From positions 1 through 26,469 of the IMG/VR virus record IMGVR_UViG_3300030503_001052: 26,469 nt of DNA. The stretch is one strand, 5' to 3'. A program made the translations under genes and the position numbers. Shown here one piece after another: positions 20,287 to 25,943 of the stretch (positions within the stretch are counted from its first letter, which is position 1; every line of letters starts with the position of its first letter). The notes below the pieces were generated by a model. It did not search any database. It had not been told where the DNA came from and was given only the letters and a program-made list of their open reading frames with translations. The stretch is from a virus.

Positions 20287-21812
20287 GACTGATCCACCAT
20301 TTCCGCAAGGTAGGGGGAAGCGCTCCCGGCGTCCTGCTGCACACGCCCGATAAAACCGGTGCCGCGCTCAAATTGCACGGTCGTGAAGTAGGAGCCGAAC
20401 GGCGCGAAATCGTGTTCGACCGACACGACGTAGTAAAACGCCGGCACGTTACCGGGCTTGTACTGAATGTAAGTGCCCGCTTTGATGGCCTCGTTACCCT
20501 TCAAGCGCATCGTCCCCGTCTCAAAAACGATGTTGTCCTTGTTTTGCGCAATCAGGTCGATGCGGCGCTGCGTGATCCATCCAGACAGATCGGTTTGGTT
20601 GGCGAAGCGCGGTGTGCCGTTCGCGGTGCCATTACCGTTGTCTGTCTCCGCGTTGCCGCCCTGGTTGGTCTGCTCCCACATTTTGCGTTGCCCATACAAG
20701 GCAGGGTCCACATTCGGATAGCCCGTGACGTACGGTCCTTGCAACGGTGCGCCAGGTTGCGGCGTTTGATTCGCTTGCACGGCCACCATTCGGAGCGTCG
20801 GTTCATAATTCAGATTGAAGCGCGGGCAGTCCACCCAGAAGTAGTTCGCGACATTGGCGTCCGACCGCGCTGCCGTGATACTGACCACATCCGCCCGGCC
20901 AATGACATTACTCACGGGGAATTTCCCGCTGGGGAACGTGAACAGCGGGGTATTGTCAACGGCATAAAACGGATTGGGCCGATACACCGCATACGGGCCG
21001 TCCTCTCGATCCTCGATAAAGAATTCGTTCCACGTTCCGATATCACCGAGCGACATCAAGAGGCCGTAGATCGTCCCGCCTTGCCAACCGCCATTCCCGT
21101 AGGGCGACACTTGTCCGCCCGACACGATGATATCGGGTGTGATCGACACGAGCGGCGCACTGCACGACGCCGCGCTGGCATTTTCACGCATGTTGGAAAT
21201 ATAGGGATTAATCACCTTTGCGAACAGTTGCGTTACGAACTGGCTGGCCGGCATGATGCTATTACCAACACCAAACTGCGCGAAGAACGGGAAACTGGTC
21301 ATGTAACTGGCGTCACTCGACGGCACCCCCGGCATATAAAACACCTGCATCATCTGCAGAATCTTGCCGTAATCCTGTCCACTAACCACGATGGTGCGCT
21401 GTGGCTTTCCGTCCGCTCCCATGGTTTCCGTGATTTCCACTCTGGACACAAACCCGCGCATCATCATGGGCGGCTGCGCCGTCGGGCCGACGGCCGATTT
21501 ATAGGCATTCCCCGTCATGCGGATTTCAATGGAATCCATCGGCTCGATCAAGCCATACAATGAATCGCCGTACGAGGTGGTGTCTTGATAATAAAGCTGG
21601 TCGGTCATCGTGATCGAAAACGAGCCAGCCGGGTCTCGCACGGATTTGGACACGCGCACGCCGTTATTCTCGCCAATGTAAGGCGTCAGATCGACCGACT
21701 GCGTGGCGCCGGAGAAACGGATTGATACCGGCGTATCGCCATCCAGGGTGGTACGGCTGACGTTCTTTTTAAGGGTGACCAGCAACCCCGGCTTGCGCGT
21801 CTCGAACCTCAT
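20283..21812 (-). CDS. Baseplate hub protein (gpD / gp27-like)
   Basis: A 509-residue protein between tape measure and spike, overlapping both by ATGA. The segments VDLTPYIGENNGVRVSKSVR, AGSFSITMTD, LYGLIEPMDSIEIRMTGN, MMRGFVSRVEIT and RTIVVSGQDYGKILQ are typical of tail hub proteins, in which beta-barrel domains form the trimeric ring that closes the tube and holds the spike. The C-terminal third includes GNEAIKAGTYIQYKPGN and YYVVSVEHDF, also seen in hubs. At 509 residues it is longer than P2 gpD. Confidence 0.8.
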   Translation of the reverse strand: MRFETRKPGLLVTLKKNVSRTTLDGDTPVSIRFSGATQSVDLTPYIGENNGVRVSKSVRDPAGSFSITMTDQLYYQDTTSYGDSLYGLIEPMDSIEIRMTGNAYKSAVGPTAQPPMMMRGFVSRVEITETMGADGKPQRTIVVSGQDYGKILQMMQVFYMPGVPSSDASYMTSFPFFAQFGVGNSIMPASQFVTQLFAKVINPYISNMRENASAASCSAPLVSITPDIIVSGGQVSPYGNGGWQGGTIYGLLMSLGDIGTWNEFFIEDREDGPYAVYRPNPFYAVDNTPLFTFPSGKFPVSNVIGRADVVSITAARSDANVANYFWVDCPRFNLNYEPTLRMVAVQANQTPQPGAPLQGPYVTGYPNVDPALYGQRKMWEQTNQGGNAETDNGNGTANGTPRFANQTDLSGWITQRRIDLIAQNKDNIVFETGTMRLKGNEAIKAGTYIQYKPGNVPAFYYVVSVEHDFAPFGSYFTTVQFERGTGFIGRVQQDAGSASPYLAEMVDQS

Positions 21813-24760
21813 ACGTTGGCTGTTTGCACACCCGAGCCGCGCGGAACGGAGAACGATGCCTGGTTATTATGTTGCACCGTGGCGCCTTGCGCATTCTTGC
21901 CGGTCGTGTTGACGTTGACATTGACGTTGAGCGTATCCTGCGCGCCCTGGCTGTTGGCACCGTTTGACGTTTCTCCCGCAATCTTGGTCGGCGCACCGCC
22001 CAATGCGAACGCCACACCCTTGTCAATCTGATCATCGGTGACAGTGTTTTTACCGTTTTCTTGTTTCAGAATGGCTTTTCCCAGCACCCGCAACACCTTC
22101 GGGTCGTGCAAATTCAGTTTCTCGTCTGCCCTGAAACCGGTCATTTTCGATACGTGGGCGATGTAGCCGGCCGTATCGTTTTTGTCGCCTTTCGGCGCAT
22201 AGGGCGACACGATGTCGGCAATCGTATTGCGATGATGCCCGTCTTGCGCATACAGCAAATTCTTGAAACCCGCATTGACTCCGGTTTGCAGATCAGCGAA
22301 TTTCAGGTAACCGCCGGACTCGGTTTGTCCCTTTTCCCAAGGGCGCATGTCGAACGGATTGTTGTTGCGTTCGCCAATGGGTCCGTTTGGATTGCCCTGG
22401 ACACCGGCAGCGGCGTTTGCTGCGCCGTCGCCCCCCGCTGGTTGATCAGCACCGCTGGCGGCCTTGTTGAGCTTGTCGTTGGCATCTTGCATGGCTTTTT
22501 CGCGCGCATCGATGGCTGCTTTGTCTGTTGTGCGACGTTTTTCGACGTCAGCTAAGTCCGCATTGCTTTTCGTTTTCAGAGCGGCCATTTGCGCATCGAT
22601 GGCGTCGCGTTGCTTCGCCAGTCGTGCGCGATCGGTTTGCGAGATAGGCGTACTCCCTAACAATTTATTGTTGAGCCCGTGCCGTTTCGTTTCCAGTTCA
22701 CCCATTTGCTTGGCGTAGTCGCCCGCAATGGTCGTTCTCTCCTGATCATGCCCCGCATCGACTTCCGATATCTCCGCGTCGAGCGCTGCTTTGTGCAGAC
22801 TCTTTGCGGTACCGCCGGCCATCTTCAGCAACGCATCGCGCATCGTATTCATCGGGCCGATCAGCTTGTCGCCGACGGCGGTCTGCGCCGTCTCGACCGC
22901 CTTGATGCCCGCCAGCATGTCCTTGCCTTCGGTATTTTCCTGATCTCTCCCGGCCATCGTCTTGATCAGCGCATCCCGGAAATCACCAAACCCCTTATCG
23001 CGCGCGACATCGATCGATTTAGTCTCAACGGTGGACAGCGCATCCTTGCCGGTGCGCCGCTTGATGCCCGTGTAGATCGCATCGAGATCGCCCGAGGTCT
23101 TCGCGCCGCCGATATTGGCAATCGTCGCAATACCGCCGGTGTTGAGTTTATTAATATCGACGCCGGCATGATTGACCATGTCGCCCAGCCCGCTGACTTG
23201 TTTCGCATTCAAGTTCAACATGGCGGCGGCTTGCTGGTTCGATTGCAGTCCGAAGAAATTCTTGGCCGCGTCCAGCTTCAGTAGCGGGTTGTTGAATTGC
23301 TTGTCGAGATTTTCCCGAATCGACTGGAAATTGGTGACGCCACGGTTGCCGTCGGTGACCGTCCCGTCTTTCGATGAATCAATGCCGTTCGCGAGCAGAT
23401 ACTTGCCGATTTCCGTATCAGCCCCGAAGGTCGAGCCGCGCGTGGCAAACAGACCGCCCGATGCCAGTGCGCTGGCCCGGAACGGATCAATCTTGCCTTG
23501 CTGGCCAAACGTCCCCAGCGTGAAATTTTGCCCGGCCTCGCCGACATTGCCCATCGTGGACATGGCGCCATTGGCTTGCCCGAGAATGGCTTGTGCAGCG
23601 TCCGCCGTCATGCCCGACGACCCAGAATGCAGCATCGATCCATAGGCGGCCGCATAGGCACCCGTGTTGGGCATCGACAGACTCAAGCGCGCCATGCCGC
23701 TGGCCATGGATTGCACGAACTGCATGACGTCACCGGCCATCGCGCGCCCGCCAGATTTATTAACAGCTTCGGCGATCTGCAGCGCCAGTTCGCGGTTGTT
23801 TTGCTTGGGATCGATGTTTTTCATGGCGCCGAAGAATCCGACGCCCTGGCTCGGGTCCATCCCATAGGCGCGACTAAACCGCACGGACGAGCGCACATCG
23901 CCCATCATCCCCTCGGCGGTTTCGCCTGGAGCGTTGCGGCTAATCTTGTTGTACTGCTCGGCGAGCTGGACGAACTCCTTCGAGTTGACACCCAAACCCT
24001 GACTGGCGACATCGCTCATGGCTTTCAAGCCGGCAAAACTGACGCCGAGGTCACCCATTTGCCGCTTTAAGGTGTCCAGCCCGGTGTCGCGATCCTTTGC
24101 CATGCCGTAGCCTTCGGACACGGCCTGACCGGCCTTGAAGATGCCCAAGACAGCAGCACCGATCAGCCCACCACGCAACAATCCCGCAGCGCCCCCACCG
24201 ACGCCTCCGTCGGCAGAGCCGGATTGCGCGCCCTTGATCGCGCCATCGGCGATCTGCCCGAACCCACCACCCACGCCCTTAGAAAACGCTCCCGCCACCC
24301 TGCTCGCAAAGCCATTACCGCCTGCTTGTCGGCTAGACTTTCTCGGAACAGGCGGTTTCCCCGGATTAGCGGGGTTGGGTGGTAGTGGAACCGGCGCGAA
24401 ATTCCCCATGTCCCAGGCTGTACCCCTCGCTGCATAGCCAAACGCTTTGTCGCGCATGCGTTGCGCGGCGTGCGGGTCAATCGAGAGTTGACTGAAATCG
24501 ACATCCTGGATGCCCTTGCCGACCTGGCCCGTCGCTTTCAGGGAATCGCGCAGGGATTTCGAGCGTTGGATCGCCTGCTCAAAATTCTTGTTGAGCGTAT
24601 GCAGGTCTTTTGTCGCTGTGGCGACGTCAACCGGCTTGAACTTGACGCTGCCGGCGGTTGCCACCGCTTTGGCTAGTTGGTTGACCGATTGGGTGATCTC
24701 ATCGATCGCCTTCGAGACATTCGAGCCGTCCGCATTGACGCCAATTTTTACATCAGCCAA
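21809..24760 (-). CDS. Tape measure protein with a lysozyme-like domain
   Basis: A 983-residue protein. The N-terminal 100 residues are helical (IDEITQSVNQLAKAVATAGS, LNKNFEQAIQRSKSLRDSL), followed by a Gly-rich hydrophobic segment at about 205-235, long helical regions and a Lys/Asp/Ala-rich coiled coil at about 680-770, as expected for a tail length ruler that is also ejected. Residues about 796-915 are a separate enzyme-like domain: ERNNNPFDMR, GGYLKFADLQTGVNAGFKNL, NTIADIVSPYAP and DTAGYIAHVSKMTGF match virion peptidoglycan hydrolases of the NNPxNxR type. It probably opens the cell wall during DNA entry. The start is a TTG with GGGAGG about eight bases upstream, inside the end of the chaperone frame. 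It precedes the hub with an ATGA overlap. Confidence 0.85.
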   Translation of the reverse strand: MADVKIGVNADGSNVSKAIDEITQSVNQLAKAVATAGSVKFKPVDVATATKDLHTLNKNFEQAIQRSKSLRDSLKATGQVGKGIQDVDFSQLSIDPHAAQRMRDKAFGYAARGTAWDMGNFAPVPLPPNPANPGKPPVPRKSSRQAGGNGFASRVAGAFSKGVGGGFGQIADGAIKGAQSGSADGGVGGGAAGLLRGGLIGAAVLGIFKAGQAVSEGYGMAKDRDTGLDTLKRQMGDLGVSFAGLKAMSDVASQGLGVNSKEFVQLAEQYNKISRNAPGETAEGMMGDVRSSVRFSRAYGMDPSQGVGFFGAMKNIDPKQNNRELALQIAEAVNKSGGRAMAGDVMQFVQSMASGMARLSLSMPNTGAYAAAYGSMLHSGSSGMTADAAQAILGQANGAMSTMGNVGEAGQNFTLGTFGQQGKIDPFRASALASGGLFATRGSTFGADTEIGKYLLANGIDSSKDGTVTDGNRGVTNFQSIRENLDKQFNNPLLKLDAAKNFFGLQSNQQAAAMLNLNAKQVSGLGDMVNHAGVDINKLNTGGIATIANIGGAKTSGDLDAIYTGIKRRTGKDALSTVETKSIDVARDKGFGDFRDALIKTMAGRDQENTEGKDMLAGIKAVETAQTAVGDKLIGPMNTMRDALLKMAGGTAKSLHKAALDAEISEVDAGHDQERTTIAGDYAKQMGELETKRHGLNNKLLGSTPISQTDRARLAKQRDAIDAQMAALKTKSNADLADVEKRRTTDKAAIDAREKAMQDANDKLNKAASGADQPAGGDGAANAAAGVQGNPNGPIGERNNNPFDMRPWEKGQTESGGYLKFADLQTGVNAGFKNLLYAQDGHHRNTIADIVSPYAPKGDKNDTAGYIAHVSKMTGFRADEKLNLHDPKVLRVLGKAILKQENGKNTVTDDQIDKGVAFALGGAPTKIAGETSNGANSQGAQDTLNVNVNVNTTGKNAQGATVQHNNQASFSVPRGSGVQTANV

Positions 24761-25115
24761 TATTTATGTCCTCCCAATCATCGACCGGCGTGGCCGGCTT
24801 ATTTGCTGCTGGCTTAGTTAACGCAGCACGCCGTTTCAATGCCGCCAGCTCTTCGCCGATCTGCGCAAAGCCGTCTGTCACCGCCGCAAGGTCGAAATCG
24901 TCATCGACAATTTCTTCCTGCACCTTGTTGGCCTGATACTGATAGGCCCAGTATTCGGTTTCTATTGCCTCGTCGGTCGCCCGCAGATAACGCTCGTCCG
25001 TCGGCGCCAGGTTGTATTTATTGCGAAACCACAGGCGATGGGTGTTCGCCAGTTCCCGCCCGGCCTTCTTTGCCACCCTTGTCCTGTTGCGGTCGAAACG
25101 ACAGCTCCTTGTCAC
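24753..25115 (-). CDS. Tail assembly chaperone, second frame (GT-type extension)
   Basis: An open frame of 120 codons directly before the tape measure gene, overlapping the first chaperone frame by about 100 bases in the +1 (equivalently -2) register. The protein is charged and helical (KAGRELANTHRLWFRNKYNL, EIVDDDFDLAAVTDGFAQIG). In many tailed phages, the second chaperone domain is made only as a frameshift fusion to the first and binds the tape measure protein. The GTG at 25115 lies in the overlap and has no evident ribosome binding site, so fusion by frameshifting is more likely than independent initiation. Confidence 0.65.
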   Translation of the reverse strand: MTRSCRFDRNRTRVAKKAGRELANTHRLWFRNKYNLAPTDERYLRATDEAIETEYWAYQYQANKVQEEIVDDDFDLAAVTDGFAQIGEELAALKRRAALTKPAANKPATPVDDWEDINIG

Positions 25116-25407
25116 GGAGCGCCCTCCAGATCGTAATTAGTTTGTTTTCGTAATCGTCATCCACCAGCGGATCAAGGTGGTCGAGATCGAAGCCATCCGG
25201 GCCGCCCACCAGCAAGAGCTGGATCGTCACAAATGCGAGTGCCGCGATATCGGCCATGTTGCCGTCGGCGTCGTAGTGGCCATCTGTGACCTGGTTGTAC
25301 CGGCCGCGAATCTTGAACAGGTCGCCGACCGAGCGGCGGGCAAAGAGAAAGCGGCCTAGTTGGTCGACGTCGACGGCAAAGTCGGTAGCATGAGCGGTGC
25401 GCGGCAT
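25018..25407 (-). CDS. Tail assembly chaperone, first frame (G-type)
   Basis: A 129-residue acidic protein (DVDQLGRFLFARRSVGDLFK, LAFVTIQLLLVGG, FDLDHLDPLVDDDYENKLIT) between tail tube and tape measure, the position of tail assembly chaperones. The start was chosen at the ATG at 25407 with GGA upstream, not at a TTG four codons earlier. The last 30 or so codons overlap the second frame; the terminated form ends in SPVVSQ. It guides polymerisation of the tube around the tape measure and is absent from the virion in studied phages. Confidence 0.75.
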   Translation of the reverse strand: MPRTAHATDFAVDVDQLGRFLFARRSVGDLFKIRGRYNQVTDGHYDADGNMADIAALAFVTIQLLLVGGPDGFDLDHLDPLVDDDYENKLITIWRALRDKELSFRPQQDKGGKEGRAGTGEHPSPVVSQ

Positions 25408-25508: not shown

Positions 25509-25943
25509 TTACAACGTGGTGCCCTGGACGTCCAGGGCATTGAATTGCCCCGACTGCATGACGATGGCATGTTTGGAGACTTCGACATCGCCCGACGCAT
25601 ACGAGCAGCCGACGTATTTACGCAGCAAGGTGCCGTCGGTCTTCGAGTAGACCTCGAAATCGAACACCAGGCCTTGCAACATGGCGTCGCCGTTTTCTGC
25701 GGCGGCCCCCGAGGCGAGTAATGCACCTGCATTCAAGGCCATGACCTGCACGCTGATCGAATGCCGTGCCATGGTTGGGACGTATTCCTGCACATGGATA
25801 TCGCCGACGCCGCTGGCCGGTTCCGGCGAATAATCGTCGTTGAGCCGCACCGACTGAATCAGGCCGACTTGCACCCCGCCGAAGGTCACCACGATCAGGT
25901 TGCCTGTGCGGGTCTTGAGATTCACACTATTCTGGATCGTCAT
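25509..25943 (-). CDS. Tail tube protein
   Basis: A 144-residue protein directly after the sheath gene, with AGGAG ten bases before its ATG. The beta-rich pattern (NLIVVTFGGVQVGLIQSVRL, YSPEPASGVGDIHVQEYVPT, RHSISVQVMAL, LVFDFEVYSKTDG) and its size fit tube proteins of contractile tails, which stack as hexameric rings inside the sheath. It ends in a strand with QSGQFNALDVQGTTL. The assignment is based on gene order and fold-like pattern; no diagnostic motif exists for the family. Confidence 0.75.
   Translation of the reverse strand: MTIQNSVNLKTRTGNLIVVTFGGVQVGLIQSVRLNDDYSPEPASGVGDIHVQEYVPTMARHSISVQVMALNAGALLASGAAAENGDAMLQGLVFDFEVYSKTDGTLLRKYVGCSYASGDVEVSKHAIVMQSGQFNALDVQGTTL

Follow-up and report, generated by a model that had tools for sequence, protein, structure and literature searches.

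The 26,469-nucleotide (nt) virus record IMGVR_UViG_3300030503_001052, which in its entirety is the window analysed here, carries on its minus strand two overlapping reading frames that very probably form one tail assembly chaperone (TAC) pair, the long form of which would be made by a programmed +1 frameshift at UUU_CGA. The original prediction, made from this sequence alone, had described two chaperone frames overlapping by about 100 bases and had placed the second at +1 relative to the first, as opposed to the -1 of lambda-type phages. The overlap is indeed 119 nt, or 98 nt if counted from a GTG at 25115, and frame 2, which is open in the window from 25136 to its stop at 24755-24753, lies at +1 relative to frame 1. 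The elements on which the argument draws are as follows.

25018 to 25407, minus strand: TAC-N, the chaperone short form in frame 1, 129 amino acids (aa), an open reading frame with ATG at 25407 and TAA at 25020-25018.
24753 to 25097, minus strand: TAC-C, the putative C-terminal domain in the +1 frame, from the post-shift TTC codon to the stop, delimited by the frame-2 profile and phrog_25000.
25095 to 25098, minus strand: the predicted UUU_C slip tetranucleotide, on which tRNA-Phe would re-pair from UUU to UUC.
25093 to 25095, minus strand: the zero-frame A-site codon CGA (Arg), with GAC at 25094-25092 as the post-shift A-site codon, from the sequence and family codon counts.
25099 to 25101, minus strand: the E-site codon, Ser TCG in the window.
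25105 to 25110, minus strand: a Shine-Dalgarno-like AAGGAG, 6 nt upstream of the shift codon.
25113 to 25115, minus strand: GTG, a candidate start of frame 2, with GGAGG (25127-25123) 7 nt upstream.
25137 to 25139, minus strand: the TAA that bounds frame 2 upstream and sets, on reading of the sequence, the 5' limit for a shift.

When the frame-2 protein alone was used as the query, the scan returned no relative. A frame-2 profile search retrieved 70 IMG/VR loci, and tblastn located both frames in the approximately 90-kb phages PHB04, Dolphis, Jeremy (which is close to Dolphis), phiT5282EW, ST4, Touem01 and fHe-Yen8-01. The collection comprised 78 loci with frame 2, the window included, of which 77 also have frame 1 (locus L068 begins at a contig end and lacks it); it was reduced to 68 distinct sequences, which form 46 clusters when the fused protein is grouped at 70% identity. 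The slip site of each locus was defined as the TTT CGN nearest to the profile position and no more than 30 nt from it, and the 59 loci that needed no such choice are referred to as the strict set. Frame 2 stands at +1 of frame 1 in all 77 loci with both frames scored, so that the lambda-type -1 register was not encountered, and in none of the 77 is frame 2 a separate, non-overlapping gene, an arrangement that the original prediction had named as evidence against a shift.

Comparison of these homologues, also proposed in the original prediction, singled out TTT-CGN among its candidates: TTT-C at 25098-25095 does lie in frame 1 with CGA next, and the P-site codon at this place is TTT, followed by C, in 68 of 68 distinct loci, as compared with 19.7 TTT expected from each locus's own codon use and a background of 27% of Phe codons. 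The A-site codon is CGN or CAG in every one of these loci (CGA in 30, CGC in 27, CGT in 10 and CAG in 1), and CGG, for which own codon use would give 12.4, is absent. Strict sites have TTT in 59/59 and TTT CGN in 58/59, whereas control Phe-Arg pairs elsewhere in the same loci have TTT in 53/148; CGG accounts for 0/58 at strict sites and for 29/125 elsewhere. Two further controls gave low TTT use, as the conserved Phe-Arg of frame 2 is written with TTT in 13 of 43 cases and the conserved GxFxF Phe codons of frame 1 in 40 of 124, TTC accounting for most (84/124). All members of 45 of the 46 clusters keep TTT CGN, if L057 is scored by its upstream TTT CGT, and TTT CGN occupies the same position in seven named phages, namely those listed above except Jeremy, together with Morganella phage Mecenats66, a relative found later that has CGA TTT CGC at the site and frame 2 at +1.

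The homologues also restrict where a shift could take place to approximately 26 nt, as frame 2 becomes open 8 nt ahead of TTT in L061 and L074, and in L053 and L063 the frame-1 stop codon comes 18 nt past it. Within these limits the nucleotide profile has TTTC as its sole invariant run, with G as the next base in 67 of 68 loci. Protein conservation of frame 1 drops right after the Phe-Arg and that of frame 2 rises over the next codons, and in most relatives the frame-2 profile match starts at the post-shift TTC codon. We also observed that T never occurs at +6 from the slip TTT, where the +1 A-site codon has its third base (C in 34, A in 22 and G in 12 of 68 loci). A second in-frame TTT C (TTT CTC) is present early in frame 1 of the window, at 25347-25350 (codon F20).

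Codon choice is biased upstream of the slip codon as well. The E-site codon is TCC in 29 and TCT in 20 of the 68 loci, and Ser before the slip Phe is TCC or TCT in 43/47 cases vs 40/226 before other Phe codons. AAGGAG is found 6 nt upstream in 45/68 loci, and Lys-Glu is encoded as AAGGAG in 41/43 strict loci vs 76/226 instances elsewhere. These choices are synonymous in frame 1, and therefore the frame-1 protein does not explain them. No downstream stimulatory RNA structure was evident in either of two stretches across the 68 loci (mean z of +0.25 and +0.06), and the upstream stretch from -60 to -12 had a mean z of -0.57, with 11/68 loci below -2.

Several observations weigh against a +1 slip at this site. 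The window itself has TCG as its E-site codon, which is not the favoured TCC or TCT and occurs in 2 of the 53 distinct loci with Ser there. L051 has TTT CAG, which is still UUU_Y, and in L057 (2976-3000) the aligned site reads TTT AGA, with TCC TTT CGT in that same frame 21 nt further upstream, so that the slip site has possibly been relocated in this locus. The amino acid encoded in the +1 frame may partly account for the preference among CGN codons. In 9 of the 68 loci the site was assigned by proximity to the profile position, and p-values are overstated because related sequences are not independent. The window also contains, at GTG 25115, a possible start codon with a good Shine-Dalgarno sequence, GGAGG, which would suit translation of frame 2 as a separate protein, translationally coupled to frame 1 and made without any fusion. 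GTG stands at the matching position in 11/68 relatives, and in the GenBank records of relatives gene callers have given frame 2 as a short gene of its own. We nevertheless regard this alternative as improbable. Frame 2 has no conserved start of its own: ATG, GTG and TTG are all missing upstream of the site in 25 of 68 loci, in 20 of 68 none occurs even to 30 nt beyond it, and in L061 and L074 frame 2 is open for a mere 8 nt before the site. An independent start, which the original prediction had likewise named as evidence against a shift, would moreover leave the universal TTT, the TCC/TCT bias and the absence of CGG unexplained.

The remaining alternatives concern the kind and place of the shift. 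A -2 shift would yield the same register as +1, and this type is known in Mu (PMC5009743). It is, however, very improbable in the present case, because tRNA-Phe would need to move back two bases and pair with CGT in the window, or with CCT or CTT in most relatives, and because the nucleotide profile of the loci contains no conserved -2 run, in agreement with the earlier failure to find a convincing one in the window; the conserved tetranucleotide, by comparison, fits +1 re-pairing of tRNA-Phe exactly. The other candidate of the original prediction, AAA-G at 25071-25068, was correctly located and does stand in frame 1 in the window. As a slip site it was rejected for its poor conservation, since AAAG occurs at +27 nt in 7 loci, in 4/68 frame 1 does not reach this far, and the stops in L053 and L063 fall before it could act; a shift at this position, or elsewhere downstream of TTT, is thus scarcely credible. 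We retain the +1 shift at UUU_CGA.

That these frames encode tail chaperones, as had been proposed, was borne out. The tail assembly chaperone family phrog_25000 matched all 25 of the fused relatives tested (25 of the 68 distinct fusions), with a best value of 5.1e-15; frame-1 matches fall in the first half of this 230-position profile and frame-2 matches in the second, TAC-C aligning to positions 128-187. An AlphaFold2 model of TAC-N (predicted local distance difference test score, pLDDT, 88.7) resembles viral tail assembly chaperones, and its BFVD matches include named ones (Bacillus phage JL, 3.5e-3); its likeness to the HK97 TAC, 2ob9 (Z 3.7), and to 3fgx (Z 5.0) is weak. The TAC-C model (pLDDT 83.6) had few structural matches. 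A Foldseek search of the TAC-N model against the PDB gave no match at E <= 0.001, a PDB search by sequence gave none, and Pfam gave no convincing match. Gene order also agrees with this assignment, and it involves the two neighbouring genes.

21809 to 24760, minus strand: tape measure protein gene, next downstream (phrog_2276, tail length tape measure protein, 3e-24).
25509 to 25943, minus strand: predicted tail-tube-type structural protein gene, next upstream (phrog_985, virion structural protein, 9.3e-36).

The gene in the position of the upstream neighbour is annotated as major tail protein in Dolphis and ST4, and L003-L008 likewise have the overlapping pair of frames between the genes for tail tube and tape measure. 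In the window, the C-terminal part of the tape measure protein (residues 793-957) matches the phage endolysin family phrog_873 (8.9e-33), and this protein therefore seems to carry a cell-wall-degrading domain.

We also scanned viral contigs with two 18-nt patterns of 15 fixed bases each. The scan returned 43 + 29 = 72 stretches, of which 37 (24 + 13) lie at this chaperone junction with both profiles matched; comparison of contig names indicated that 16 of the 37 are on contigs already known and 21 are new. Because both patterns were built from the most frequent forms of the site, these numbers show the specificity of the cassette and not an independent rate. One cassette, AAGGAGCCATCTTTTCGC at L158:3372-3389, lies outside this chaperone family, in a 90-codon frame accompanied by a 94-codon +1 frame, and represents either chance or a second family.

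The lambda G/GT shift uses a slippery heptamer, and in the E. coli release factor 2 gene (prfB) a +1 P-site slip takes place at CUU, with UGA in the A site and an upstream Shine-Dalgarno-like sequence at a 3-nt spacing. The phage site described here resembles prfB in that a P-site +1 slip would be aided by an upstream Shine-Dalgarno-like sequence, but it differs in having UUU, a sense codon in the A site and a 6-nt spacer. Lambda G/GT likewise has a chaperone pair ahead of its tape measure gene and a transframe long form, and differs in its -1 register (PMC5009743). Closer in sequence is PA-X of influenza A virus, where +1 shifting at UCC_UUU_CGU was shown by mass spectrometry; mutation of UCC lowered shifting by 40-70% and mutation of CGU to CGG halved it, and the authors proposed that UUU_C sites form a class in which the A- and E-site codons are restricted (PMC3498833). 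ASXL1 has been noted to carry the same sequence as the PA-X site (PMC5644247). The phage loci have UUU_C in 68/68, CGN in 67/68 (CGA in the window) and the +1 register in 77/77; UCC, the codon of PA-X, is favoured in the E site along with UCT, and CGG is never found in the A site. They differ in that PA-X is an unrelated gene translated by a eukaryotic ribosome, for which the accessible part of the report describes no Shine-Dalgarno-like element, and in the E-site TCG of the window.

A TTT-CGC motif was already noted in the haloarchaeal HF1-group viruses, in which a tail chaperone pair likewise precedes the tape measure gene and the register is +1; these are, however, six related genomes of archaeal viruses (PMC7230728). 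HF2, the sequence of which we checked, reads AAG TTT CGC AGA TAG and thus has AAG as its E-site codon and a stop one codon later, and it had no significant match to the profiles of our chaperone frames. For the tail assembly chaperones of two other myovirus families, Vandenendeviridae and Andersonviridae, on the other hand, a -1 shift at GTTTTT was reported (PMC12846349). KPP10, also checked by sequence, is a myovirus with the same gene order and overlapping chaperone frames, and no profile similarity to TAC-N or TAC-C was seen in it. A literature search that left most subscription papers outside its reach, and does not establish absence, found no description of a TTT-CGN +1 shift in tail chaperones of bacterial phages, nor, within the same scope, of the site, Shine-Dalgarno-like element and codon constraints of this lineage. 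For some Burkholderia phages +1 shifts may already be on record, a point that this search did not settle. Chaperone frameshifting and the UUU_CGN site class are thus already known, and what sets the present case apart is that it would span a whole lineage of bacterial phages and carries additional signals in synonymous codon choice.

From sequence comparison we infer both that the shift occurs, at whatever rate, and what its products do. Most ribosomes would read TAC-N (129 aa) as far as its stop, while on others the Phe tRNA would slip one base forward onto UUC and reading would continue in the +1 frame to yield a 217-aa TAC-NC fusion (...ELS-F-DRNR...). The Ser codon in the E site and the AAGGAG lying 6 nt before the slip codon probably make slipping more frequent, judging from their synonymous conservation. 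Position, family and the parallel with lambda gpG/gpGT suggest that the short form TAC-N would coat the tape measure protein and that TAC-NC would, through its C domain, bind and recruit tail-tube subunits.

Annotation of the seven named relatives (L003-L008 and L081) gives the frames as separate proteins, or one of them only, and no record marks a frameshift. The GenBank relatives have separate hypothetical proteins, with frame 2 shortened (135-183 nt) from an internal start; in Touem01 frame 1 is unannotated and frame 2 is given at 348 nt. The frameshift reading would correct the annotation of the two chaperone frames in these phages.

The authors of PRFect state that forward frameshift sites have no known general motif (PMC10885494), and UUU_Ynn has been reported as especially prone to +1 shifting in bacteria (PMC5009743). 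We lean slightly towards the view that the +1 slip at UCY_UUU_CGH (H = A, C or T) is intrinsic to the ribosome, that this cassette functions in all three domains, and that a bacterial myovirus lineage fixed it for the tail chaperone and reinforced it with an internal AAGGAG, its E-, P- and A-site choices having converged with those of influenza PA-X. One short cassette has been retained in approximately 46 diverged lineages (the 70% identity clusters), down to codon choices that are neutral for the protein, and this conserved cassette therefore offers a natural series for the roles of the E site, the A site and the Shine-Dalgarno-like element in a +1 slip, with which the PA-X rules derived from eukaryotic cells become testable on bacterial ribosomes.

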